From: an uncultured Bacteroidales bacterium
GTDB taxonomy: Bacteria; Bacteroidota; Bacteroidia; Bacteroidales; Bacteroidaceae
DNA: 64,000 nt
NCBI GenBank assembly: GCA_902778625.1
Contig: CACYYM010000010.1
Location: 124,001 to 188,000, forward strand
Direction of reading: 5' to 3'
Part shown: one piece after another, positions 2,665 to 63,278 of the stretch
Layout of the letters: each line of letters opens with the position of its first letter
Position numbering within the stretch: position 1 is the first letter of the stretch
The notes under the pieces: generated by a model
The model's database searches: none
The model's input: the letters and a program-made list of their open reading frames with translations, nothing else
Told to the model about the DNA's origin: nothing
Position numbers and translations under genes: made by a program

Positions 2665-2803
2665 TTATTTGTTAATTGCAGGAAATCGCAAAAGCGACAA
2701 TTGACAAATCGTCAAATCATCACGCCATTCTGCTTACTTTTTGCTACTTTGATTTCAGACGCTGCACGGCGCAAAATAGAACGAAAAACGGGGGAAAAGT
2801 GGA

Positions 2804-2902
2804 CTTAGCAGGGGGTGTTGACCGACCCCGCAGGCGACGTTGACAATCCTCGCAGGCGAAGTTTTACATTTTCGCGTGCCGCGTTTGGCATTTTCGCGTG
2901 CT
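2804..2902 (+). repeat. 22-nt-phased palindrome array (core CGCAGGCG/CGCGTGC)
   Basis: The 672 bp between tRNA-Arg and susC holds five short imperfect palindromes whose centres fall at 2810.5, 2832.5, 2854.5, 2876.5 and 2898.5, that is, exactly every 22 nt. The cores read AGCAGGGG (degenerate), CCGCAGGCGA, TCGCAGGCGA, TCGCGTGCCG and TCGCGTGC. The same core occurs in the arrays at 29590-29688 and 48743-48822. The array lies between divergent transcription units. Function unknown. Confidence 0.8.
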
Positions 2903-3213
2903 TAATCGGCCTCCAAAACACATCAAAAAAACCACTTTCCCGCTCAAAATCGAGCCTATTTACTGACTATGTCGCACATCGCAAAATATAAACACCACAG
3001 TCTCAGCCTGTTACAAAAATCGGCAAAATTCTAGAGAATCCGTACCTAGGTACAGGCCCTCGATTCCGATGGGCTTCTCCGCGATTTGGGAAAAGCCAGA
3101 ATGTAAGCAAAATGCCACTCTTTGCTAACAAATTGTCAAATACGACAAAGAAATGTTTTTTCTTTTAAGGGCAATAACATACCATTATACTTTATTTATC
3201 CGAAAATTTTGCA

Positions 3214-12939: not shown

Positions 12940-14295
12940 ATGAAAAGAATATCTTTACTTATTTCGGCGGCCTTGCTGTCCTTGATAGCAGGCGTGCAGA
13001 CAGCGATGGCACAGAAGGTTATGCTCTATATGACAGGGAATCAGGCTGTCGAGTACGACATCGCGCAGCTGGACAGCATTGTCTTCTGCGAGGGGCAAAC
13101 GATTCCTGCAGATGAAATTGTTGTTACCGTTGACACTAATGGGAATGCCGACGGCGGGCATAGGTTTGAGAAAATTGACGAAACTCACTTTTACATTGAT
13201 GACATAAAATATACTGCTCAAAATGGTGATTTGGTAGTTACTGGGTATTATAATGCTTTCTTCAAGGGTGCTGCAAATATAATCTCGGTATTGAAGTACC
13301 GCGGTAGAACATTGAATGTTGTTAGCATAAAAGAAAAAGCCTTTCAAGATTGCAGCAGCCTGACCTCCATCACCATTTCCACCAGTGTAACTGGCATTGG
13401 TAGCTCTGCTTTCGAAGGTTGCAGCAGCCTGACCTCCATCACCATCCCTGAGAGCGTGACCAGTATCGGACAACGGGCCTTCTATGGTTGCCGTAGCCTG
13501 ACCTCCATCACTATCCCCAAGAGCGTTACTAGCATCGGCGAATGGGTCTTTTATGATTGTGGCAGACTGGCATCTGTAACTCTGGAAAGCAATAATATCG
13601 TCTCTGCTGCAAGAGATTATAATTCTTCTATGAGAACAATCTTTGGGGATCAAGTTGAAGAATATATTATTGGCAACAGCGTGACCTGCATTGGCAAGTA
13701 TGCCTTCGAGTATTGCCGCAACCTGACCTCCATCACCATCCCCGAGAGTGTGACCAGCATCGGCGAATGGGCCTTCTCAAATTGCAGCAGCCTGAGCTCC
13801 GTCACCATCCCAAACAGCGTGAACAGCATCGGCGACGAGGCCTTCCAAAATTGTTTTTTCAAGACAGAATCTTTTGTTAACAACTCTTCTTTAACGAGTG
13901 ATGACAATTGGGGAGCAACCTTATGTGATGAAGAAACGAGTGATGGATTGGTTATCAAAAACAATATTGTTGTGAGATGTAGAGTATGGGCTGTCTCCAT
14001 CACCATCCCCGAGAGCGTGACCAGTATCAGCAACGCTGCATTCTGGAGTTGCAGTAGTCTGACCTCCGTCACCATCGGAAGTGGAGTGACCAGCATCGGC
14101 AGCTCTGCCTTCTCTCAATGCAGCAGCCTTACAGATGTCTATTGCTATGCTGAAAATGTTCCAAGCACAGATGATAATGTGTTTTCTTCCACCCCCATTT
14201 CGTCTGCTACACTCCATGTGCCTGCCGGGTCTGTGGATGCTTATAAAGCAGCAGGACCTTGGAAAAACTTCGGAACCATCGTAGCGATAGAGTAA
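12940..14295 (+). CDS. BspA-type leucine-rich repeat surface protein
   Basis: 451 aa. Signal peptide MKRISLLISAALLSLIAGVQ, cleaved near TAMAQ. From about residue 125 there are repeats of about 23 residues, of the form CSSLTSITIPESVTSIGxxAF, the LRR_5 (BspA/TpLRR) type. At the DNA level these are near-identical units such as AGCCTGACCTCCATCACCAT, prone to recombination. Residues 20-50 (KVMLYMTGNQAVEYDIAQLDSIVFCE) are an N-terminal module common in secreted Bacteroidales proteins. BspA-like proteins mediate adhesion in some species; that role here is only by analogy. The end (ATLHVPAGSVDAYKAAGPWKNFGTIVAIE) is the usual LRR_5 capping segment. It has its own promoter and terminator. Confidence 0.9.
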   Translation: MKRISLLISAALLSLIAGVQTAMAQKVMLYMTGNQAVEYDIAQLDSIVFCEGQTIPADEIVVTVDTNGNADGGHRFEKIDETHFYIDDIKYTAQNGDLVVTGYYNAFFKGAANIISVLKYRGRTLNVVSIKEKAFQDCSSLTSITISTSVTGIGSSAFEGCSSLTSITIPESVTSIGQRAFYGCRSLTSITIPKSVTSIGEWVFYDCGRLASVTLESNNIVSAARDYNSSMRTIFGDQVEEYIIGNSVTCIGKYAFEYCRNLTSITIPESVTSIGEWAFSNCSSLSSVTIPNSVNSIGDEAFQNCFFKTESFVNNSSLTSDDNWGATLCDEETSDGLVIKNNIVVRCRVWAVSITIPESVTSISNAAFWSCSSLTSVTIGSGVTSIGSSAFSQCSSLTDVYCYAENVPSTDDNVFSSTPISSATLHVPAGSVDAYKAAGPWKNFGTIVAIE

Positions 14296-16744: not shown

Positions 16745-17051
16745 CGAAGTTTCATTCAAAATTCAAAATAATTAAATTCAAAATTGATTGTGAGAAGGAA
16801 AAAAAATCAGGAAGGCAGACGTCCCTGTCCGCAAAAAACAAGCCCGAGTGCCATCACTTATGTGCCAAAATGACATCTCCAGATTGCAAAACGGCACTTT
16901 GACGGAAGAAAAATAGCCTCAGGGGTTAACAAAACGGGGGGTGCCGAGTATATAAAAGCGTGAGGGTTCCGCAAAAGACAAACCGCGACACCCCTGAAGT
17001 TTTTTTCCGACTGCAGTCAATTTGGCCAGCTTCTGGGATGGGGTTTTCAAA
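16745..17051. other. Gene-free gap, left part, between GH27 and HU genes
   Basis: About 470 bp lie between the divergent GH27 and HU-like genes. This left part starts with a 7-nt AAATTCA-type tandem word (about 16752-16790). A near-perfect inverted repeat CCTCAGGGGT (about 16917-16926) / ACCCCTGAAG (about 16990-16999) brackets about 60 nt that include a TATATAA stretch. I see no open reading frame with coding character. The right part is the phased array at 17052-17152. Confidence 0.5.
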
Positions 17052-17152
17052 ATGCTTGTGAGCATTTGAAAAAATCCACGTGTGGATTTACTAAAATCCT
17101 CGTGTGGATTTCGTCAAATCCTCGTGTGGATTTTGCCATATCCTCGTGTGAT
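17052..17152 (+). repeat. 22-nt-phased palindrome array upstream of the HU-like gene
   Basis: Five 14-nt units start at 17052, 17074, 17096, 17118 and 17140, a strict 22-nt pitch with 8-nt spacers. They read ATGCTTGTGAGCAT, ATCCACGTGTGGAT, ATCCTCGTGTGGAT (twice) and ATCCTCGTGTG. Unit arms also pair across the spacers (GGATTT-ACTA-AAATCC), so two alternative hairpin registers exist. The array lies 65-165 nt upstream of the HU-like start. The array at 54665-54766 has the same architecture. Confidence 0.88.
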
Positions 17153-17216
17153 GTTTTTTCGCCTCTCTCGCAAATTCTCTAACTCTTTTATTTTTAACCT
17201 TTTAAATCTTATTGTT

Positions 17217-23923: not shown

Positions 23924-24832
23924 ATGAAAAAGCTTATCCTGTTTGCACTCTGCGCCTGCATCACGCTGGGCGCAGGTGCTGCCAAAAAGAATACTGGCAA
24001 AAAGAAAAAGGGCAAGGAACCTGTCGAGGTAGTCGATACACTTTGCGTCGATACCTTCAGCTACTTCTTTGGCCGCGCCAACTCCAACGGACTGAAGGGC
24101 TATCTGGCACAGCGCATGGGCATCGATACAACCTTCATTGCCGACTTCCTGAAAGGCTTCGAGCAGAAAGAACTCACTGCGGCCGACAAAAAGGAGAAGG
24201 CTCGCCTGGCTGGCATCGAGATTCGTCAGCAGGTGGAGAGTCAGGTCTATCCCAACGCCTCAAAGCAGGTGAACGACAGCACCGACATCCTGAACAAGGC
24301 TCTCTTCATAAAAGGTTTCCGCGAGGGCTTCGAAGGCACGAACAACGCCGTTTCGATGGACAGCACTCAGAAACTTGTCAAGAAGCAGATGGAGTACTAT
24401 CACAAAGTCAACATGGAGAAGAAGTACGGCGCAAACCGCATTGCTGGTGAGGAATTCCTCAAGGCCAATGCCAAGAAGGACAGCATCAAAGTCACTCCCA
24501 GCGGCTTGCAGTACAAGGTGCTGACACAGGGCACTGGCGAGATTCCAACGAAGGAAGCCAAAGTAAAGGTTAACTACGAAGGCCACCTCATCGATGGTAC
24601 CGAGTTCGACAGCTCTTACAAGCGCAACAAGCCCGTCAGCTTCCCCGTCAGCGGTGTTATCCCAGGTTGGACAGAAGCACTCTGCATGATGCCCGTCGGC
24701 AGCAAGTGGATGCTCTATGTTCCACAGGAGCTCGCATACAAGGACCGCGAACAGGCCAAGATTCCTCCTTTCTCCTGCCTCATCTTCACCGTTGAGCTGC
24801 TGGAGATTGAAAAAGACGCAACGAAAAAGTAG
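23924..24832 (+). CDS. FKBP-type peptidyl-prolyl isomerase, exported
   Basis: 302 aa. N-terminal signal MKKLILFALCACITLGAGAA followed by a lysine-rich stretch KKNTGKKKKGKE. FKBP_N part about 45-170, FKBP domain with VKVNYEGHLIDGTEFDSSYK, VIPGWTEALCMM and VPQELAYKDREQ. There is no clear lipobox at the cleavage site, so a soluble periplasmic form is likely. It starts 6 nt after the preceding FKBP. The TAG stop (24830-24832) is the first three bases of the palindrome array that follows. Confidence 0.92.
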   Translation: MKKLILFALCACITLGAGAAKKNTGKKKKGKEPVEVVDTLCVDTFSYFFGRANSNGLKGYLAQRMGIDTTFIADFLKGFEQKELTAADKKEKARLAGIEIRQQVESQVYPNASKQVNDSTDILNKALFIKGFREGFEGTNNAVSMDSTQKLVKKQMEYYHKVNMEKKYGANRIAGEEFLKANAKKDSIKVTPSGLQYKVLTQGTGEIPTKEAKVKVNYEGHLIDGTEFDSSYKRNKPVSFPVSGVIPGWTEALCMMPVGSKWMLYVPQELAYKDREQAKIPPFSCLIFTVELLEIEKDATKK

Positions 24833-24910
24833 CCACAGCTAGTTGGCCAACTAGGCACGTCTAGTTTGCGAATTAGGCACGCCTAGTTTGGCAATTAGCC
24901 ACGGCTAGTT
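24830..24910 (+). repeat. 22-nt-phased palindrome array (TAGSCACRSCTA)
   Basis: Four 12-nt units start at 24830, 24852, 24874 and 24896: TAGCCACAGCTA, TAGGCACGTCTA, TAGGCACGCCTA and TAGCCACGGCTA. The pitch is exactly 22 nt. The 10-nt spacers are themselves palindromic or nearly so (GTTGGCCAAC, GTTTGCGAAT, GTTTGGCAAT; GTTTCGAAAC after the last), giving alternating palindromes every 11 nt. The first unit overlaps the stop codon of the upstream FKBP gene. Paired changes (C..G, G..C) keep the stems, as compensatory substitution would. Confidence 0.88.
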
Positions 24911-24955
24911 TCGAAACGCCACCGCATAAGATTATCAACCACTAAAACTGACAAT

Positions 24956-29241: not shown

Positions 29242-29589
29242 ATAGTAGGGATATTCATGTAGAAATCCGTTGCGCGTGACAAACGAGCCAATCGTCCTCT
29301 GTCAATTATCTCTCTGCGGGTGGACATCAATAGTAATTATAATGGGAATCAACGTATAGATTAGGGCATATTGTCTGCTTGTTTTGTAAACAATTTTCCG
29401 AGAGAGACGCGTTCTGACGGCTTGTTTTTTGCTTTGTGGCACTTTCCTGCCTGAAACGCTGAAAATGGGCTTAAATCAAGTCGCAGTTGATAATCAGCTG
29501 GTTACAAAGCCAAATTTTGAAGCACAAGGCAAAGAAAGTATATTTGCAGCACACAGAATAGTTAAATAGCGCATGGTTTGAGCCGAAAT
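29242..29589. other. Gene-free gap, left part, between convergent genes
   Basis: The 673 bp from 29176 to 29848 between two convergent genes holds a weak terminator, about 350 bp of AT-rich sequence with no coding character on either strand, then the phased array (29590-29688) and a CTCCCCT...AGGGG repeat (29769-29825). Confidence 0.5.
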
Positions 29590-29688
29590 TCTGCCTGCGG
29601 AGATGGGCAACTCCACATGCGGTAATTACAAACATCGCGTGCGGCGTTGGCAATCTTCGCGTGCGGCGTTTTCTTTCTTCGCCTGCAA
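29590..29688 (+). repeat. 22-nt-phased palindrome array (core CGCGTGCGG)
   Basis: Centres fall at 29595.5, 29617.5, 29639.5, 29661.5 and 29683.5. Cores read TGCCTGCGG, CCACATGCGG, TCGCGTGCGG (twice) and TCGCCTGCAA. The arrays at 2804-2902 and 48743-48822 have the same core. Confidence 0.85.
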
Positions 29689-29768
29689 TATTTCCAGACG
29701 CCTCACTTTTTGGCGCTTTTTTTGTAAAGGATTTTCCCTGAAAATGGACGGAGAATACCGCGACAAAA

Positions 29769-34520: not shown

Positions 34521-34553
34521 GACGCCGACTTTCTTAATAGCCTTCAAAAAAAC

Positions 34554-34722
34554 ACTCGACGTGTCGTGTCACCAAACTCGACACGTTGAGTTGATTATAT
34601 ATACATGTATGTATAATTAAATGTACATGTATGTATAATTAAATGTACATGTATCTATAATCAACTTGGCACGCCGTGTTGAGAAACACGACTTGAGGTC
34701 TCGAGCAACCCGACCTGTCGAG
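34554..34722 (+). repeat. Long 22-nt-phased palindrome array with changing cores
   Basis: Eight positions on a 22-nt pitch, centres 34561.5, 34583.5, 34605.5, 34627.5, 34649.5, 34671.5, (34693.5 weak) and 34715.5. Cores: CTCGACGTGTCGTG, ACTCGACACGTTGAGT, TATACATGTATGTA, GTACATGTAT (twice), TTGGCACGCCGTG, a weak unit near GACTTGAGGTC, and CCGACCTGTCGAG. The core changes sequence class three times while the phase is kept. It lies between the subtilase pseudogene and the lipoate ligase promoter. Confidence 0.85.
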
Positions 34723-34801
34723 TGAGGTGACGCACTATGTCATTTTTCCTAAAAGAACGAAATAATTCTCCATTCTTCTTTCTTAATTCCTAATTTATTT
34801 G

Positions 34802-41202: not shown

Positions 41203-41244
41203 AATCCGCGTACTACGATACCCATCGAGGCACGCGGATTTTCC
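41203..41244 (+). terminator. Terminator of the lplA-gcv-lpd operon
   Basis: A 9-bp stem AATCCGCGT/ACGCGGATT is followed by TTTTCC, about 40 nt after the lpd stop. The rest of the gap between convergent operons (41245-41410) shows no credible gene. Confidence 0.78.
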
Positions 41245-41410
41245 TTGCCCGTCCTGTCGCGCCAGCCAACATGGCACGAGATGCTCTTTGCCTTTACGTG
41301 TATAAACAACAAACTTTCCACGCCAAGTTGATCGCTTCGTCGCCATGCAGCAACAAAACAGACGCGGGAAGTCTGGTTCCGACTGACGACAAATCGGGTA
41401 AAATGACAAG

Positions 41411-42587: not shown

Positions 42588-43775
42588 ATGTACGGTAAAA
42601 TGAAAGAACATCTCAGCCAGACGCTCGCTGAGATTCGTGAAGCTGGCCTTTACAAGGAAGAGCGCCTCATCGAAAGTCCTCAGAAGGCTGCCATCCAAGT
42701 CAAGGGAAAGGAAGTCCTGAACTTCTGTGCCAACAACTATCTTGGCCTCTCCGACCATCCGCGCCTCATCGAGGGCGCAACGAAGATGATGCAGGAGCGC
42801 GGCTTCGGCATGTCGAGCGTCCGCTTCATCTGCGGCACACAAGACATCCACAAGCAGCTCGAGGCTGCCATCAGCGACTATTTCAAGACCGAAGACACCA
42901 TCCTCTATGCTGCTTGCTTCGATGCTAACGGCGGTGTGTTCGAACCGCTCTTCACGGAGGAGGATGCCATCATCAGCGATGCCCTCAACCACGCCAGCAT
43001 CATCGACGGCGTGCGCCTCTGCAAGGCAAAGCGCTATCGCTACGCCAACGCCAACATGGAAGAGCTGGAGAAGTGCCTGCAAGAAGCACAGGCACAGCGC
43101 TTCCGCATCATCGTGACCGACGGCGTCTTCTCCATGGACGGCAATGTCGCTCCGATGGACAAGATTTGCGACCTCGCTGAGAAATATGACGCACTGGTGA
43201 TGGTGGACGAGAGCCACTCGGCTGGTGTTGTAGGCAAGACAGGTCACGGCGTAAGCGAACTGACCGACACCTACGGACGCGTCGATATCTATACGGGAAC
43301 TTTGGGCAAAGCATTCGGCGGCGCTTTGGGCGGCTTCACGACTGGCCGCAAGGAGATTATCGACCTGCTGCGTCAGCGCTCACGTCCCTATCTGTTCTCC
43401 AACTCACTTGCCCCCTGCATCATCGGCGCTTCGCTTGAGGTCTTCAAGATGCTCAAGGAATCGAACGAGCTGCACGACCGCTTGGTTGAGAACGTCAACT
43501 ACTTCCGCGACAAGATGATGGCAGCAGGCTTCGACATCAAGCCCACACAGAGCGCCATCTGCGCCGTAATGCTCTACGACGCCAAGCTCTCGCAAGTCTT
43601 CGCTGCCAAGATGCAGGAGGAAGGCATCTACGTCACCGGCTTCTACTATCCCGTTGTGCCGAAGGGCGAGGCCCGCATCCGTGTTCAGCTCTCCGCAGGC
43701 CACAAGCGCGAGCATCTCGACAAGTGCATTGCCGCCTTCATCAAGGTCGGCAAGGAGCTCGGCGTGCTAAAGTAA
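42588..43775 (+). CDS. kbl: Glycine C-acetyltransferase (2-amino-3-ketobutyrate CoA ligase)
   Basis: 395 aa, the usual length of this alpha-oxoamine synthase. PLP lysine in YTGTLGKAFGGALGGFTTG near residue 242; NFCANNYLGLSDHPRLIEGA, MVDESHSAGVVGKTGHG, and SGNAL-type RPYLFSNSLAPCIIGAS are typical. It cleaves 2-amino-3-ketobutyrate with CoA to glycine and acetyl-CoA, following Tdh. The last codons (GGCGTGCTAAAGTAA) are the first unit of the repeat array that continues downstream. Confidence 0.95.
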   Translation: MYGKMKEHLSQTLAEIREAGLYKEERLIESPQKAAIQVKGKEVLNFCANNYLGLSDHPRLIEGATKMMQERGFGMSSVRFICGTQDIHKQLEAAISDYFKTEDTILYAACFDANGGVFEPLFTEEDAIISDALNHASIIDGVRLCKAKRYRYANANMEELEKCLQEAQAQRFRIIVTDGVFSMDGNVAPMDKICDLAEKYDALVMVDESHSAGVVGKTGHGVSELTDTYGRVDIYTGTLGKAFGGALGGFTTGRKEIIDLLRQRSRPYLFSNSLAPCIIGASLEVFKMLKESNELHDRLVENVNYFRDKMMAAGFDIKPTQSAICAVMLYDAKLSQVFAAKMQEEGIYVTGFYYPVVPKGEARIRVQLSAGHKREHLDKCIAAFIKVGKELGVLK

Positions 43776-43856
43776 GAGATTCGGCACGCCAAGGTTCTCC
43801 TTGTGGCGTGCTGAAGTAAGAGATTCGGCACGCCAAGGTTTTCCCTGCGGCGTGCT
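43761..43856 (+). repeat. 44-nt (2 x 22) inverted palindrome array from the kbl 3' end
   Basis: GGCGTGC occurs at 43761, 43805 and 43849 and the inverse GCACGCC at 43784 and 43828, a strict 44-nt period with half-steps of 23 and 21 nt. The text AAGTAAGAGATTCGGCACGC is repeated, and it includes the kbl stop codon. The first copy is the coding end of kbl. Confidence 0.85.
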
Positions 43857-43885
43857 GAAGTAAGAACCACATCACACAAACATAA

Positions 43886-44262: not shown

Positions 44263-47200
44263 TCACTTAACCGCAATCTTCTTTCCGTTCACGATGTTGA
44301 TACCCTTCTGCATCTTGTTGATGCGCTGACCAGCAAGGTTGAAGATGGGGCCATTGACCATTGAAGATTGACCATTGACTATTTCGATAGCTGTTGCATC
44401 ATCCTCGAAGGTGAAGACCTTAATAGGGTTGCTGCCAGTGTATTCAAGGTAAGCCTTACCTTCAGGAATAGTAACGCTTGCTGCTACAGGATAGAAGCCA
44501 ACGACTGCAGGATCACCTTTCTGTGCAAGAGCATAGATGCCTTCGCCGCCAGTAACAGAGCCGTTAGAACCGCTGAGGCTGTTGCTTGCTGCCTTGCTTG
44601 CACCAGTAGTGGGCATGAAGTTGAAGAGACCTGCATCAGTTCCTTCAGCCAACTTTAGAACAACAGGCTCGCTTGCAGCAATCTTGTTTTCAATGGCAAC
44701 GAGAGAGAGGCTTGTTCCATTTACGACACCAGCGTATGCTTCAATGCCAGAGGGAATCTCCACATCAGAGTAAACATTATACATAGTAGAGTAACCAGCC
44801 GCACCAATCTGAGCAACAAAGCCATGATCGGAAGCTAAGTTAGGATATGCATCGCTGCTCAAGTTCTGACGGAAACCAAAGCCAAGCTTTGCGCAAAGTT
44901 CGCCGGATGTAACTTTGCTGGCATCTGTGGAAATGATGCTGGCATTGTCACTATCCGATAATGTCGTGCTATAGCAATTGGTGTATGTACCATTTGAAGT
45001 ACGAACAAAGTTGCCTTGTGTAGCACCCGTAACACTTCCAGAATTATATACATTCTTGAAAACAGAGCTGGAATTTCCCTGGCATGCACATATTGTTGAA
45101 ACATCACCTGAGCCTGAAACATCGCCTATGTTGTACACATTTTCGATATTCAATGTACATTGATATCCCCAGTTGTTTGCTACGATAGCTGCTGTTTCGC
45201 CAGAATTACCTTGAATAGTAGCCTCGTTACCACAGTTCTGGATTGTTACGACACCGCCACCGATTGCTTCTGCAATAATACCGGCTGTCTTGCTATCAGC
45301 ATTCTTTACAGAGCCAGTAACGACAAGGTTCTTAACAGTTACACCGCCTGTGGCAATGCTTATGAAGCCTTGACCATATGCGTTGGCATCGATGTTGAGA
45401 TTAACTTTATGGCCTGAGCCGTCAAATGTGCCTTGATACCTATTGGCACCATTGCCTATAGGAGTATAGGTTACACTGCTCATATCCACATCAGCAGTTA
45501 GCTTGCCATTGATGGTAGTATTGCCTGCGTTCACCATAGCAGAGAACCAAACCAAATCGTCAGAAGAAGACAAGTGCAAGAAGTTATCCGCATCAGGAGA
45601 AATATGATCCGGTATTACCTCATCACAATAAGTACAGAAACCTTTCGTATTGTTTGTGTGTGATGTGAAGTTACCTGTTATATTTTCTGTGTTCGAGTAT
45701 GCCAGACTCTCCACAGTATTTGGACAAGAATAATTTCCATTCTGATAGACAACAGCACCCTCTTTTGCGAATGGCATGGGATAAGCATCTGTACCGAGAA
45801 GCTGCCACCAACCTACTGTGTAGGCAAGCTTACCGCCAGCGATGTCAGTAGTATTAAGTCCAGAGTTATTACCCTGAGTCTTGTCATCTGTATCAGAGAG
45901 GTCGATGAGGTTCGTCACATCACCAATGTTGTGACGGCCGATGTTGCCGCCTTCGTGACCATTGACCGTACCGAGGTTAACGAAGTTCTCAATCTTCGAA
46001 CCGCCTCCTACTCCCAAATAGCAGCAGAGAGCACCAGCATAGGGATGTTCGTTCTTAGCTGTGATGGTGCCAGTGTTCAGCACATTCTTGATAATGATAG
46101 TTGGACTGCCACCTTCGTGACCACCAAAGATACCGCCTGCATCCTGATGCTCTGCTGTAATGGTTGCTTCGTTGATGACATTCTCAATGGTGATGGTACC
46201 GCCTTCGACTTGATAGGAGCCGGTAATGCCACCTATACGGTTGTAGCCGTGGATGGTGCAACTCTTGTCCATGATGAGGTTCATAATCGTTGTGGTACCA
46301 TTGCCGCGCAGGAAACCGAAGAAGCCGATGTTGCTGTCAGAGGGACGCTCGATAATCATATTCTTGATGCGGAAGCCCTGACCGTCAAAAATACCGTTAT
46401 ATTTCTTCCCTGTATTGGGGCCAATGGGGCTGTGAAGGTTTTCTATGTTGAGGAAGTCTATGTCATTCATCAACTTACCATTTATTGTAGTATTTCCTGC
46501 TGCAACAGATGCACCAAACCATTCCACGTTGCCTGCGTTCTTCAGTTCATACCAGCCGTCAACAAGGGTCGGTTCTTGGAACTGAGTGTGACAGAAAGTA
46601 CACATGCCAATCTCGTCGGAGATGTCGTGAGGAATCTGGACGATGCCATCGGGGCCTTCATTATTATATAATGTACCGGGAGCAGAAGTTCCGTCGCAGT
46701 ACAACTGACCATGAGCATAGACTTGAGCGCCGTCGGCAACGGGAAGAGGATACTCCTGTGTGCCATCCAGAGTCTGAGTCCAGGCGATTTCGCTCTGGTC
46801 GCCATTCAATCTGTAGCAGAGCTCGCCGGAAGTCAGCATCTCGTCTGTGATGACTGCGCCCTGTCCGCCGTTCTTGTCATAGACATTTGTCACGGTTACC
46901 GTGCCACGATATGTGTTGTCTGAATTGCTGATTCCGGTGACGCTACCGATATTCCAGCAATTGGTGATGATGTTGCCTGAGTTGCTGCCAATCCAGCCGG
47001 TAAGGGCTGCGGATTCTGTTGTTGCAGAAACATTACCGGTGTTGCCGCAATTAATCATTCTGATGGTAGCCTTGCTGCTGGTGTTAGCGCCATGAATGCC
47101 ACCGCAGTTCTTGTTGCCTGTGCTTGTGACGTCAGCAAAGTTCATACACGACTCGATGTTCAATGCCACGGCGCAATTGTTTGCTTGGCTCACGATACCG

Positions 47201-48471
47201 GCAGCACAAAGGCCTGCTGTTTGTACGGCTCCCTTATTGGTGCAACCGAAGATATTAACAGTTGATGCTGCAGCACTATTGATCTGAGCAACGATACCGG
47301 CTGCATAGGCTACGGATGTCGTTATGGCACCTTCGTTCGTGCAATTCTTGATGGTTATGGTTACGTTCCTGTCGTTGATTGCTGTGATTTGACCTACGAT
47401 GCCAGCCACGTGATTTGCAGTAGTTGTAACGTTAGCCTTGTTGACGCAGTTCTCAATCAGCAAGGTGTTGTTCTGAGTTCTTTCATGTATTCTGCCTACG
47501 ATACCAGCCACATACGCGGAAGAGCCCTTGACTTCGCAGCTGGAGTCGATGGTAAGGTTCTTGATGACTACGTTAGCAATTGCGTCGTTGCCGACACGAA
47601 CACAGCCGAAGAAGCCGATGCCATCATCACCGGGCCTGGGACGCTCGGGCTGGTCAAGCTTCATGTTCTTTATGGTATGGCCATCGCCGTCGAACACGCC
47701 AAGGAACTTCTTGTCGAATGTACCGATAGGCTTGTGAGCATTTACAGGCAGACCTGCATAGTCGATGTCGGCCGTCAGCTTGTAGCTGCAGATGGCATAG
47801 GGAGTGCCTTCTTCGTTGGCAGCTCCTGCACCGACCTTAGCGGACATCCATTCCACGTTGCCCACGTTGCCGAGCATATAGACGCCGTCAACCATTTCTG
47901 CAGGCTGATACTTTTCGTCGCCGTCACAGGTGCAGATACCGTTGTTGGTGTAGTCGTGCACGTGTGCAGGGTCGGGGTCTTCTACCTCAGTCAAGGTCCA
48001 GGCTGAACGCGGGTTGCCTTCTGCTACAGAAGCAAAGCTCTGAACGGTGTTGTTGTCTTTCCAGTTCAAGCCCAACGTGCCGTCACTGAAGTCATACGGA
48101 GAGTTGGCCGTGCACGACATACGGTATTTGCCGCTGTACGAACCACTGGCATCTGCCTTTACACAATACTCCACACCTGCATCGCCAGTAGCCACCTCTT
48201 GTCCAGAGGTAGTATAGCCCTGAATATACTTTCCTGTTTTGGCATTCTGGATGTAGTAACAGTCAGCATTTGCTGTGGCCACGAACTTCCAATAGGAGTT
48301 TTCGTTCTCACCACCGAGGTCAACACCTCCAGTGCCATTGTCCTGCATGAACATGTTGGCATCGTTGTTGTTGACAATGGTGTAGGTCTTTGTCGCGTCA
48401 AACTGAGCAAAGAGGTCTGAGCCTAACGCACTGGCGATGAGCATCGCCGCGAAAAGAAATAGTTTCTTCAT
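44263..48471 (-). CDS. Giant secreted GLUG-type repeat protein
   Basis: 1402 aa from MKKLFLFAAMLIASALGSDL (signal peptide ending FAQ); the upstream in-frame codons from 48507 are rejected because the -7 box lies at 48538-48545 and the signal peptide begins here. Three homologous parts repeat the scheme VEWMSAKVGAGAANEEGTPY-like opening, a GxFDGxGHxIKNM segment, then many short GLUG-like units (GIVGQI, NxGxVTG), and a block ending in TSGELCYRLNG-like words with DAYPMP. This is the Bacteroidales GLUG surface-protein type, often adhesin-like; role unknown. A ricin-like opening (YTIVNNNDANMFMQDNGTGG) may bind carbohydrate. The C-terminal tail FNLAGQRINKMQKGINIVNG then KKIAVK follows a coding 7-nt repeat (44351-44378). 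Confidence 0.85.
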   Translation of the reverse strand: MKKLFLFAAMLIASALGSDLFAQFDATKTYTIVNNNDANMFMQDNGTGGVDLGGENENSYWKFVATANADCYYIQNAKTGKYIQGYTTSGQEVATGDAGVEYCVKADASGSYSGKYRMSCTANSPYDFSDGTLGLNWKDNNTVQSFASVAEGNPRSAWTLTEVEDPDPAHVHDYTNNGICTCDGDEKYQPAEMVDGVYMLGNVGNVEWMSAKVGAGAANEEGTPYAICSYKLTADIDYAGLPVNAHKPIGTFDKKFLGVFDGDGHTIKNMKLDQPERPRPGDDGIGFFGCVRVGNDAIANVVIKNLTIDSSCEVKGSSAYVAGIVGRIHERTQNNTLLIENCVNKANVTTTANHVAGIVGQITAINDRNVTITIKNCTNEGAITTSVAYAAGIVAQINSAAASTVNIFGCTNKGAVQTAGLCAAGIVSQANNCAVALNIESCMNFADVTSTGNKNCGGIHGANTSSKATIRMINCGNTGNVSATTESAALTGWIGSNSGNIITNCWNIGSVTGISNSDNTYRGTVTVTNVYDKNGGQGAVITDEMLTSGELCYRLNGDQSEIAWTQTLDGTQEYPLPVADGAQVYAHGQLYCDGTSAPGTLYNNEGPDGIVQIPHDISDEIGMCTFCHTQFQEPTLVDGWYELKNAGNVEWFGASVAAGNTTINGKLMNDIDFLNIENLHSPIGPNTGKKYNGIFDGQGFRIKNMIIERPSDSNIGFFGFLRGNGTTTIMNLIMDKSCTIHGYNRIGGITGSYQVEGGTITIENVINEATITAEHQDAGGIFGGHEGGSPTIIIKNVLNTGTITAKNEHPYAGALCCYLGVGGGSKIENFVNLGTVNGHEGGNIGRHNIGDVTNLIDLSDTDDKTQGNNSGLNTTDIAGGKLAYTVGWWQLLGTDAYPMPFAKEGAVVYQNGNYSCPNTVESLAYSNTENITGNFTSHTNNTKGFCTYCDEVIPDHISPDADNFLHLSSSDDLVWFSAMVNAGNTTINGKLTADVDMSSVTYTPIGNGANRYQGTFDGSGHKVNLNIDANAYGQGFISIATGGVTVKNLVVTGSVKNADSKTAGIIAEAIGGGVVTIQNCGNEATIQGNSGETAAIVANNWGYQCTLNIENVYNIGDVSGSGDVSTICACQGNSSSVFKNVYNSGSVTGATQGNFVRTSNGTYTNCYSTTLSDSDNASIISTDASKVTSGELCAKLGFGFRQNLSSDAYPNLASDHGFVAQIGAAGYSTMYNVYSDVEIPSGIEAYAGVVNGTSLSLVAIENKIAASEPVVLKLAEGTDAGLFNFMPTTGASKAASNSLSGSNGSVTGGEGIYALAQKGDPAVVGFYPVAASVTIPEGKAYLEYTGSNPIKVFTFEDDATAIEIVNGQSSMVNGPIFNLAGQRINKMQKGINIVNGKKIAVK
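44351..44378 (+). repeat. Heptamer tandem repeat (CCATTGA)x4 inside the GLUG protein gene
   Basis: Four 7-nt steps (CCATTGA, CCATTGA, AGATTGA, CCATTGA) encode NGQSSMVNG on the minus strand, between the body and the C-terminal tail. Reverse complement TCAATGG equals the heptamer in susC. Confidence 0.78.
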
Positions 48472-48537
48472 AAAATAAATATTTGGGTTTAAAAATCTTT
48501 TTACCAAGTTTTCTGTGCTTATGCAAGCAATTTAGTA

Positions 48538-48545: not shown

Positions 48546-48742
48546 AACACTTCCTTACAAATAATGATTCGCGACGTGTTAATAATTGTTAACCGTGCTA
48601 AAATCCATACAGAAGTGTGCAAAAATAGTAATAATCGCGAGCTTAATGATACTCTTTTTGTTCAGGAAAATGTAAAAGTCACAAAAAAAAATATCACTTG
48701 CGGCAGAGATGTACACTTTGCTTCGTCAGGGGGCATGAAAAA

Positions 48743-48822
48743 CGCCGCGTGCGGCGATGGGCATTTCCGCGTGCGGCGTTGGCAAACTCCGCAGGCGGCG
48801 TTTGGAGGCGTCGCCTGCGGAG
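48743..48822 (+). repeat. 22-nt-phased palindrome array (core CCGCGTGCGG)
   Basis: Centres at 48749.5, 48771.5, 48793.5 and 48815.5: CGCCGCGTGCGGCG, CCGCGTGCGG, CCGCAGGCGG and TCGCCTGCGG. The pitch is exactly 22 nt. It lies between the recQ stop and the GLUG gene promoter. The remaining gap, 48546-48742, is AT-rich with no gene seen. Confidence 0.88.
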
Positions 48823-48847
48823 TTGTATGTTGCTGTGTGAGAGGGTG

Positions 48848-51025
48848 TTAGTTGCCGTTTTCGGAGAGGAACTTGATGCGGACGAGTTTGATTTCTTCCT
48901 CTGTGTATTCGTCTTCGTCGTCGGCGAACTCGTCGAGGGCGTCGTCGATGTTGTTGTCCTCTGCCTCGCGGAAGTAGTCGTAGATGTCCTGCATGTGGTC
49001 GTCGTCCATGACCTCGCGGATGTAGTAGTCGAGGTTGAGCTTTGTTCCGCTCTCGACCATGCTGTATATTTCGTCGAGCAGCTCGTCGAGTGTCATGCCC
49101 TTGGTGCGGGCTATCTCTTCGAGATCGACTTGTCGGTCGATGGAGGTGATGATGCTGACCTTGTCGGCGCTCTTGTTGACGACGGTGCGTATGCGGAAGT
49201 CTTCGAAGCGGTCTATCTCGTTTTCTTCGCAGTAGCGTGCGATGAGTTGCACGAACTCTGCTCCGTAGCGGTTTGCCTTGCCTTCGCCGACGCCCTTGAT
49301 GTTCTTGAGTTCCTCAACTGTTGTGGGATATGACGTTGCCATGTCCTCGAGCGACGGGTCTTGGAAGATGACGTATGGCGGCAGGTTCTTGCGTCGGGCG
49401 ACATCGCGGCGCAGGTCTTTAAGCATGGCGAAGAGCGTCTCGTCGAGCACTGATGTGCCTTCGCCTGCAACGTCGTTGTATTCGTCGAACTCGCGGTCCT
49501 CGGTGATGTAGAAGTCTTCGGGCTCTTTCATGTACTCGCGGCCTTGTTCGGTAATGCTCAGCAGGCCATAGTTCTCGATGCCCTTCTCGATGTAGCCGGA
49601 TATCATTGCCTGGCGGATGACGGCGTTCCAGAACGGCGCCTCGCGGTCGTCGCCGCAAGCGAAGCAGCTGAGCATTTCGTGGCGATGTGCGATGACGTCG
49701 TCCGTCTCGTTGCCGACCAGGATATCGATGATGTGCTGCGTCTTGAAGCCTTCCTTGACGGCATTGATGACTTTGAGCACCAGCAGGAGCTCGTCGCCAG
49801 CTTCCACTCTTTCGCGCGGATGGAGGCAATTGTCGCACTTGCCGCAGTTCTCGGGCTCGTACTCCTCTCCGAAGTAATGCAAGAGGAACTTGCGTCGGCA
49901 GATGGATGTCTCGGCGTATGCTGCCGTCTCTTGCAACAACTGCCGACCGATGTCCTGCTCTGCAACGGGTTTGCCTTGCATGAACTTCTCGAGCTTGCGC
50001 AGGTCGTGAGGCGAGAAGAAAGTGAGGCAGATGCCTTCTCCGCCGTCTCTGCCAGCTCGGCCTGTCTCCTGATAATAGCCTTCGAGGCTCTTGGGAATGT
50101 CGTAGTGGATGACGTAGCGGACGTCGGGTTTGTCGATGCCCATACCAAAAGCAATGGTAGCAACGATGACGTCGATGCGCTCCATGAGGAAGTCGTCCTG
50201 TGTCTCTGCCCTATCGACCGACTCCATTCCTGCATGATAAGCGCGTGCCTTGATGTTGTTGGCTCGCAACATTTCCGCGAGTTCCTCTACACGACGACGG
50301 CTCAAGCAATAGATGATGCCGCTCTTACCCTTATTTTGTAGCACGAAACGCGTGATGTCCTTGTCCACGTCCTTAGTTTTGGGGCGTATCTCGTAGTAGA
50401 GATTGGGGCGGTTGAATGAACTCTTGAACTCTGTAGCATCAGGTATGCCGAGGTTCTTCTTTATGTCCGTGCGGACTTTATCAGTCGCCGTTGCTGTGAG
50501 AGCAATAATGGGCGCCTTGCCGATTTGCTCGACGAGCGGACGGATGTTGCGGTACTCAGGACGGAAATCGTGACCCCACTCCGAGATACAATGCGCCTCG
50601 TCGACGGCATAGAACGATATCTTGGTGTTGGAAAGGAATCGCATGTTCTCTTCCTTCGTCAGCGACTCGGGTGCGACGTAGAGTAGCTTCGTGCGGCCAG
50701 CGCTGACGTCTTCCTTCACCATATCTATCTGCGCTCGGGTGAGGGAAGAATTAAGGTAGTGAGCGATGCCGTCGTTGTCCATAAACTGACGTATCGCATC
50801 AACTTGGTTCTTCATCAGAGCAATGAGGGGAGAAATCACGATAGCCGTGCCTTCGCTTATCAAAGCCGGCAACTGGTAACACAGCGACTTACCGCCGCCG
50901 GTTGGCATCAGCACAAAGGTGTCTTTGCCATCGAGGAGGTTGCGGATAATCGCTTCCTGGTCGCCCTTGAAGGTATCGAAGCCAAAGAAATGCTTCAGCT
51001 GTTCTGTCAAATTAATCTCGTGCAT
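48848..51025 (-). CDS. recQ: ATP-dependent DNA helicase RecQ
   Basis: 725 aa. Walker A MPTGGGKSLCYQLPA near 40, DEAH box AVDEAHCISEWGHDFRPEY, RecQ zinc-binding cluster (CRRKFLLHYFGE ... CGKCDNC near 370-395), winged-helix part, and an HRDC domain (about 525-600). An acidic C-terminal extension (FADDEDEYTEEEIKLVRIKF) makes it longer than E. coli RecQ (610 aa), as in other Bacteroidetes. It unwinds DNA 3' to 5' in recombination and repair. It follows clpX on the same strand with its own promoter. Confidence 0.95.
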   Translation of the reverse strand: MHEINLTEQLKHFFGFDTFKGDQEAIIRNLLDGKDTFVLMPTGGGKSLCYQLPALISEGTAIVISPLIALMKNQVDAIRQFMDNDGIAHYLNSSLTRAQIDMVKEDVSAGRTKLLYVAPESLTKEENMRFLSNTKISFYAVDEAHCISEWGHDFRPEYRNIRPLVEQIGKAPIIALTATATDKVRTDIKKNLGIPDATEFKSSFNRPNLYYEIRPKTKDVDKDITRFVLQNKGKSGIIYCLSRRRVEELAEMLRANNIKARAYHAGMESVDRAETQDDFLMERIDVIVATIAFGMGIDKPDVRYVIHYDIPKSLEGYYQETGRAGRDGGEGICLTFFSPHDLRKLEKFMQGKPVAEQDIGRQLLQETAAYAETSICRRKFLLHYFGEEYEPENCGKCDNCLHPRERVEAGDELLLVLKVINAVKEGFKTQHIIDILVGNETDDVIAHRHEMLSCFACGDDREAPFWNAVIRQAMISGYIEKGIENYGLLSITEQGREYMKEPEDFYITEDREFDEYNDVAGEGTSVLDETLFAMLKDLRRDVARRKNLPPYVIFQDPSLEDMATSYPTTVEELKNIKGVGEGKANRYGAEFVQLIARYCEENEIDRFEDFRIRTVVNKSADKVSIITSIDRQVDLEEIARTKGMTLDELLDEIYSMVESGTKLNLDYYIREVMDDDHMQDIYDYFREAEDNNIDDALDEFADDEDEYTEEEIKLVRIKFLSENGN

Positions 51026-54585: not shown

Positions 54586-54664
54586 CAAAGAAAAGTTGAA
54601 AAATTGAAATATTAAAAGGTTAAAAAGAAAGAAGAATGAGGAATTGTTTCGAGTCCTTCGCAAA

Positions 54665-54766
54665 ATCCACAGGTGGATTCGGGCAAATCCACAGGTGGAT
54701 TTTGCAGAATGCACGTGTGGATTTGCCCGGATGCACGTGTGGATTTTCCCGGATGCACGTATGTGG
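54665..54766 (+). repeat. 22-nt-phased palindrome array upstream of tig
   Basis: Five 14-nt units start at 54665, 54687, 54709, 54731 and 54753: ATCCACAGGTGGAT (twice), ATGCACGTGTGGAT (twice), ATGCACGTATGTGG. The pitch is exactly 22 nt and the spacers 8 nt (TCGGGCAA, TTTGCAGA, TTGCCCGG, TTTCCCGG). It has the same architecture and arms as the array at 17052-17152. It lies upstream of the tig promoter and downstream of the phosphodiesterase gene. Confidence 0.9.
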
Positions 54767-63134: not shown

Positions 63135-63278
63135 CTCTCAACTCTTGACTCTCAACTCTCGACTCTCAACTCTTGACTCTCAACTCTTGACTCTTGACTC
63201 TCAACTCTCGACTCTTGACTCTCGACTCTCAACTCTTGACTCTTGACTCTTGACTCTTGACTCTTGACTCTCGACTCA
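63135..63278 (+). repeat. Heptamer tandem array (CTCTYRA), about 20 copies
   Basis: Steps of exactly 7 nt alternate among CTCTCAA, CTCTTGA and CTCTCGA. The largest heptamer array in the window. Because 7 is not a multiple of 3 every frame is read in turn, which creates spurious open frames such as the minus-strand repeat ESRVKSQ. Confidence 0.92.

Follow-up and report, generated by a model that had tools for sequence, protein, structure and literature searches.

We found that the intergenic DNA of an uncultured Bacteroidales bacterium carries arrays of short imperfect palindromes at an exact pitch of 22 nt, whose units consist of symmetrical half-sites, are frequently four in number and lie by preference near gene 3' ends. 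In this genome the arrays are evenly spaced and exclude one another over about 2 kb, also between different sequence classes, and their positions are partly conserved in related species, where the same gaps can hold arrays with differing cores. We tentatively suggest that the arrays may be operator lattices of a candidate multimeric DNA-binding protein, which would mark off chromosome segments of ~6 kb.

The window is the whole stretch of 64,000 nt that was analysed (G000:C10:124001-188000, G000 being the window's own genome), and it comes from an assembly of 3.08 Mb in 39 contigs that is 89% complete. Own-genome counts refer to a sample of 864 kb (~28% of the MAG) with home-made gene calls. 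The trigger factor encoded in the window shares 92% identity with that of a water buffalo cecum MAG, 'Bacteroidaceae bacterium RGIG7250', and its further close relatives belong to ruminant-gut MAGs. The window contains the following arrays:

2800..2910 (cores 2809-2897), no strand assigned: array of five cores, CAGG, CAGG, CAGG, CGTG and CGTG, at exact 22-nt pitch, in the gap from tRNA-Arg (-) to a TonB-receptor gene (+).
17047..17156 (cores 17055-17143), no strand assigned: array of five units of the ATCCACGTGTGGAT class, immediately upstream of an HU-like gene.
24826..24911, no strand assigned: array of four units of the TAGGCACGCCTA class, at the end of an FKBP gene.
29585..29692 (cores 29594-29682), no strand assigned: array of five units of the CGCGTGCGG class in a convergent gap, with an additional CATG core at 29572.
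34551..34725 (cores 34560-34714), no strand assigned: array of eight units in a single phase, three TACATGTA units standing inside CGACGTGTCG-like flanking units.
41222..41331 (cores 41231-41322), no strand assigned: ninth, degenerate array, with cores CACG, CCTG, CACG, CGTG and CACG at 22-nt pitch.
43754..43862 (cores 43763-43851), no strand assigned: array of five alternating CGTG/CACG cores at 22-nt pitch.
48739..48826 (cores 48748-48814), no strand assigned: array of four units of the CCGCGTGCGG class, downstream of recQ.
54661..54748 (cores 54670-54736), no strand assigned: array of four units of the ATCCACAGGTGGAT class, upstream of the trigger factor gene.

All of these except the array at 41222..41331 had been listed in a preliminary description of the window as palindromes whose centres are 22 nt apart without drift. 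Seven of the eight listed arrays carry 4-8 CNNG cores whose distances are exact multiples of the 22-nt pitch, and the eighth (24830-24910), where a core-based reading picked CTAG and the first core is CACA, has four dyad centres 22 nt apart. The one exception that had been proposed, half-steps of 21 and 23 nt in the array at 43761, disappears once the cores are read as CGTG/CACG, which gives a pitch of exactly 22; this array doubles as a 44-bp tandem repeat beginning within the 3' end of an aminotransferase gene. Arm symmetry is uneven, the scored detector (threshold 12) catching 5/8 listed loci and a relaxed detector 7/8, and the 2804 array, missed by both, was identified by its cores and by eye. 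A search with one array (window 48725-48850) against plasmids and phages gave no match, and Rfam at the gathering threshold returned two tRNAs and nothing else. The TACATGTA triple of the window (34594-34661) is conserved in sequence and occurs in 12 further own-genome arrays, in phase amid units of other classes.

The preliminary description held that a lag-22 peak in intergenic DNA, absent from coding DNA and from shuffled controls, would support the arrays, and this peak was present in the own genome (82 kb intergenic and 777 kb coding DNA): 111 intergenic positions begin a run of four CRYG cores spaced at lag 22, compared with 0 in coding DNA and 0 in ten dinucleotide shuffles. Across lags 10-49, only the harmonic 44 scored besides 22 (14 runs; 0 at all the rest). 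At pitch 22, a scan of arm symmetry that was blind to the core gave 74 arrays in intergenic and 3 in coding DNA, whereas the remaining pitches between 16 and 30 gave 0-8 and 0-5, respectively. The phased palindrome arrays are thus a real observation. CRYG-defined runs alone made up 112 arrays in the 864 kb; merged with the symmetry-defined ones they came to 113, or one per 7.6 kb, which extrapolates to ~400 arrays per genome.

Among symmetry-defined arrays, four units were present in 46/73, five in 15, three in 6 and more in 6, and among CRYG-defined arrays with lax extension, four were present in 34/112, three in 28 and five to eleven in 50. The centre was GT or AC in 353/536 own-genome units, and when these units were turned to GT they gave the degenerate consensus AWYNNNRC-GT-GYNNNRWT with spacers like KGCM, in which the C and G flanks (0.98 and 1.00) are a selection artefact because the units were picked by core. 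Symmetry-defined units, chosen with no selection of letters, still had C at 0.73 and G at 0.76 beside the purine-pyrimidine centre (0.90, 0.87), and A at 0.76 and T at 0.72 eight positions out. Because of this consensus and these base preferences, we regard the letters as constrained within the own genome. The preliminary statement that phase and symmetry are conserved and sequence is not was therefore borne out across species, where the same gap can hold different cores, but not within the genome, given the share of GT/AC centres and the common consensus.

Our motif rules separated five sequence classes (13 arrays in the TACATGTA class) and left 20/113 arrays unclassed; classes switch within single arrays without loss of phase, and units 2 and 3 of an array have a mean identity of 0.88. 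At inner-arm positions 2-4, complementarity was 0.56/0.60/0.55 within the unit, 0.49-0.58 with adjacent units, 0.43-0.49 with all other units of the array and 0.29-0.35 as expected from composition, and arm position 5 was near background (0.33 vs 0.32). This pattern suggests half-sites that belong to one class, not hairpin pairing. Within-unit matching does exceed the mean over the other units of the array, and some pairing or concerted change may therefore contribute.

Even spacing and mutual exclusion are the strongest result beyond the preliminary description, to which the usual size of four units and the position near gene 3' ends are further additions. In the own genome, 7.1% of the steps between neighbouring arrays were <3 kb, compared with 34.7% (sd 4.6) when array labels were shuffled among gaps of equal orientation and length class, and 0/3000 permutations were as low; the median step was 5.5 kb vs 4.3 kb permuted. 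Another array lay within 2 kb of 0/82 array-bearing gaps and of 28/72 array-free gaps (p=1.8e-11; gaps >=150 bp that lay more than 2 kb from either end of a stretch). Pairs of arrays from different classes at <2 kb numbered 0 against 9.1 expected. Since arrays exclude one another even when their letters differ, they must count as equivalent for whatever spaces them. On the two long contigs the median step was 5.9 kb (C10, 208 kb) and 6.4 kb (C1, 200 kb), and the step CV was 0.59 vs 0.85 for random gaps on C10 (P 0.006) and 0.45 vs 0.84 on C1 (P <1/3000), these values coming from a looser detector that places 2/31 C10 steps at <2 kb and overlooks the array at 2804. A cruder coding filter, which loses true arrays, gave a CV of 0.73 (P 0.07) on C10 and 0.37 (P <1/2000) on C1. 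No neighbour step <2 kb was found in five relatives, and the <3-kb test gave P 0.005 in G005, 0.065 in G008, 0.11 in G013, 0.21 in G003 and 0.23 in G012, so that even spacing was significant in 2/6 species tested (G000, G005).

With respect to genes, arrays occupy 31/45 convergent, 64/149 codirectional and 16/61 divergent gaps (gaps >=90 bp), and the 46 codirectional arrays start at a median of 33 nt past the upstream stop and finish 150 nt ahead of the following gene start. Outside the array, terminator-like hairpins were found at 19/51 codirectional gene ends with an array and 19/51 without, and at 14/33 convergent gene ends with an array and 14/25 without; hairpins of this kind overlap the array itself at 15/51 codirectional and 9/33 convergent gene ends. 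As outside hairpins are about equally common with or without an array, the arrays are no plain stand-in for terminators, and we rejected them as intrinsic-terminator substitutes on these counts. The hallmark of intrinsic terminators, an RNA hairpin selected for pairing with G.U tolerance on the sense strand, was not seen in the arrays either.

Arrays at the same pitch were present in related species. In direct-repeat samples of 78-864 kb, lag 22 was the top lag in G000 (101, median lag 1), G012 (29), G008 (18), G005 (13), G003 (8) and G013 (8), the median lag score being 0 in the latter five; G014 and G006 were too thinly sampled (25 and 33 kb). The cores have a flavour of the species: AACGCCCTATAGGGGAAT in G005, AATGGTTAACCATT in G012, CGTAACACGTTACG in G008 and several different ones in G013. 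G004 had four arrays by the symmetry scan, where lag 22 was not top by direct repetition; by eye, the palindrome ATTCRYGAAT is constant in these four arrays (for example L185:1570-1660 and L185:18464-18552), the pitch is exactly 22 and the 12-nt spacers are unrelated. Simple tandem duplication is therefore not the source of the pitch there. Among same-genus genomes, direct repetition at lag 22 gave none in G001 (115 kb), one doubtful case in G011 (149 kb) and two in G015 (110 kb), and the symmetry scan of these three found no arrays; since they are nearly empty, the arrays are dispensable for some species of the genus.

Outside the genus, one scan of 67 loci (816 kb; arms of 4, four units, >=15/16 pairs) gave 5 arrays at pitch 22 and no more than 1 at each of the other pitches. 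Arrays of 22 nt precede the trigger factor gene by ~300-900 bp in the Bacteroides/Prevotellaceae loci L053, L038, L056 (these three from Bacteroides) and L065, each with other letters, and one lies between two genes at L028:8125-8278, which we take to be clpP and clpX from the gene order. The L028 array consists of alternating hairpin units whose loops are TTCG/TCCG/TTTG, has a fixed linker resembling AGGAGTTAA, and looks more RNA-like than the arrays of the window. In nine genomes from other families the three symmetry hits were not array-like by eye, and a second scan of six of these genomes gave none.

When the same gap was compared between species, arrays sometimes recurred with other letters. 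The FKBP gene is followed by arrays of TAGGCACGCCTA in G000, TCGACACGTCGA in G005, CGTAACACGTTACG in G008 and CTTCTGCAGAGAAG in G012; upstream of the HU-like gene the units are ATCCACGTGTGGAT in G000 and CTTCTGCAGAG in G012. The gap upstream of the trigger factor gene holds other cores in G008 and G013 and none in G012, the gap of 41222..41331 also scores for arrays in G008, G012 and G013, and a G013 stretch related to the 43754..43862 array has steps of 24/20 by eye. Orthologous gaps anchored on two genes held an array in 5/6 cases where the window has one and in 1/11 where it has none (p=0.005), and control pitches of 20, 21, 23 and 24 gave 0/17; in this test the nine array gaps of the window were labelled by hand and the mapping was programmatic, and its count supersedes a hand-mapped tally of 10/15 vs 1/12. 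Orthologous gaps with one anchor showed no concordance (7/17 vs 4/12).

Several described systems resemble the arrays in part. A CRISPR repeat plus spacer is far longer than the 22-nt pitch. The accessible text of PMC2817692 describes the REP/BIME elements of enterobacteria, Pseudomonas and Xanthomonas as many extragenic imperfect palindromes in regularly spaced arrays with a proposed role in chromosome organisation, and the present arrays likewise have >100 extragenic copies with imperfect palindromes (113 arrays; 74/77 symmetry-defined ones intergenic). They differ in that a REP family has one palindrome, compared with five classes and 20/113 unclassed arrays here, mixed within arrays; in that these classes are interchangeable on a strict 22-nt pitch and mutually exclusive; and in RAYT, PF01797 being unmatched in the own genome (89% complete) while 5/14 controls match. 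One marginal PF01797 match was found in the array-bearing G003. A further trait of REP/BIME is that gyrase, IHF or DNA polymerase I binds them. The BrickBuilt MITE of Porphyromonas gingivalis is also an intergenic repeat of a Bacteroidales species, made of short tandem repeats with possible dyad symmetry, and according to the available part of its description it is built of a 23-nt unit, forms a single sequence family that has a leader and a tail with small inverted ends, and occurs in 19 copies (PMC4596501). Here, in contrast, pitch 23 gives 0 four-CRYG runs, and pitch 22 gives 113 arrays in 28% of the genome with many sequences. PINSR of Prevotella intermedia is intergenic, with 177 and 184 copies in two strains and about three-quarters of regions shared, and seems set apart by its description, which in the accessible text is of one 188-bp sequence and does not mention 22-nt units (PMC4755523). 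The arrays thus differ from REP/BIME, BrickBuilt and intrinsic terminators in the tested defining features, and probably from PINSR, to go by its description. We judge them a kind apart because pitch and chromosome-wide spacing are conserved and not sequence; if the REP-like look were weighed more, it would place them with the REP kind. A literature search, mainly of open papers, showed no 22-nt phased palindrome arrays in the titles and abstract openings of the matches listed.

For the geometry there is a precedent in Lrp/AsnC octamers, round which the DNA is wrapped and whose operators, in the accessible text of two papers, contain 4-5 regularly spaced semipalindromic dimer sites two turns apart (PMC10201364), or have centres two or three turns apart (PMC2995911). 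The 22-bp pitch and the four units of 46/73 symmetry-defined arrays agree with this geometry; the difference is that Lrp/AsnC sites are described at few promoters, whereas the present sites are hundreds, intergenic and biased to gene ends. Lrp was present alike in array-bearing and array-poor genomes of the genus and no link to the arrays was found, nor was a binding protein found among the candidates looked at.

A multimeric DNA-binding or nucleoid protein seated on a single DNA face, one of two readers named in the preliminary description, fits best. Each array would be a block of ~90 bp, most often of four dyad-symmetric 22-bp units, ~6 kb from the next in an intergenic gap, along which a row of protein dimers may assemble on one face of the DNA; 22 bp is two turns and could fix the contact between dimers. 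The arrays might then act as nodes (by looping, wrapping or as a supercoil barrier) with no given sequence required, and the base preference of the reader, or of a paralogous set of readers, may drift between species as the geometry stays. A node that segments the chromosome would be the simplest function, and a spreading mechanism with immunity is the main rival. A wider reading, which we hold to be rather doubtful, would make the arrays a ruler along the whole chromosome whose geometry is read, not its sequence: ~400 dyad-lattice nodes per genome, ~6 kb apart and excluding near neighbours, would divide the chromosome into segments through a lattice-forming protein, with the pitch locked and the base preference drifting between species. 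If this is true, bacterial domain or loop anchors would be readable in plain sequence at a fixed pitch, the old question of segmentation into pieces of a few kb could be tested directly by shifting or re-phasing a single array, and the DNA would hold an unusual code that keeps geometry while its letters drift.

The arrays could instead be selfish or neutral palindromic repeats which spread, are homogenised by slippage and template switching, and are kept from genes, promoters and each other by target immunity. Transposons with target immunity are known to have exclusion zones; the exclusion might stem from the spread of the arrays and not from their function, and the amplification of one or few classes in each species and the likeness of units within an array (units 2 and 3) point the same way. 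We nevertheless consider this origin unlikely, as the G004 palindrome is constant in four arrays read by eye while its spacers differ, class changes inside one array keep the phase, arrays with other cores recur in the same gap of relatives, and no Y1 transposase (PF01797) was matched in the own genome, where RAYT-type spreading is rejected. The Mu/Tn7-type domain PF09299 matched 0/16 genomes, but also 0/14 controls. Wrapping sites for gyrase (topoisomerase) near gene ends, read by bendability and comparable in role to BIME-2, would account for the 3'-end bias, with its highest share in convergent gaps, and for a helical phase that is kept while sequence differs; BIME-2 arrays bind gyrase in the accessible text of PMC2817692. 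Such sites seem distinctly unlikely here, because the single-base preferences by the centre of symmetry-defined units (C 0.73, G 0.76) look like base reading and because A/T peaks fall by eye at steps of 16 and 6 bp and not ~10.5.

A structure-forming RNA, the other reader of the preliminary description, fared worse. RNA hairpin arrays at 3' ends, acting as terminators or decay barriers, would agree with the short distance from the stop codon in the 46 codirectional gaps, with the terminator-like hairpins that overlap some arrays, with the folding of some units (CCGC unit, -9.7 kcal/mol) and with the runs of A that often open, and of T that often close, the G012 and CCGC arrays by eye. However, on the sense strand of codirectional gaps 905 arm positions were paired, and the mismatches comprised 60 G.U, 68 A.C and 167 others, so that wobble is not favoured; arms match adjacent units nearly as well as their own; and G004, TAAC and TACATGTA units fold at 0 to -3.0 kcal/mol. 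A long array-level hairpin, sought in 46 four-unit arrays, was absent (units 1-4 0.63, units 2-3 0.67, all unit pairs 0.63-0.67), T was not enriched in the 8 nt after the 46 codirectional arrays (2.61, vs A 2.52 in the 8 nt before), outside hairpins were as common with as without arrays, and divergent gaps carry arrays too. We hold this explanation to be improbable, and we give even less credit to a set of paralogous transcription factors, Lrp-like or of another kind, with the arrays as their ordinary operators and each class regulating its own genes. The degenerate half-site consensus, the several sequence classes and the Lrp-type precedent in geometry speak for such operators. Against them, no theme or autoregulator was seen by eye in 30/70 array-preceded genes (those <420 aa), arrays lie closer to gene ends than to starts, classes are mutually exclusive along the chromosome, and Lrp is universal, the two copies compared (G003 and G004) having an identical helix stretch despite their differing arrays.

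The window has other features in addition to the arrays. An open frame of 1414 aa on the minus strand (44263-48507) has no Pfam match at E 0.001. The 12940-14295 gene contains coding repeats with a 69-nt period (13350-13853) and by its look encodes a repetitive surface-type protein. Moreover, a long tandem repeat of 7/21 nt with ~20 copies of ACTCTTG-like units is present at 63136-63277, and other heptamer repeats are located at 2632, 12787 and 21583.
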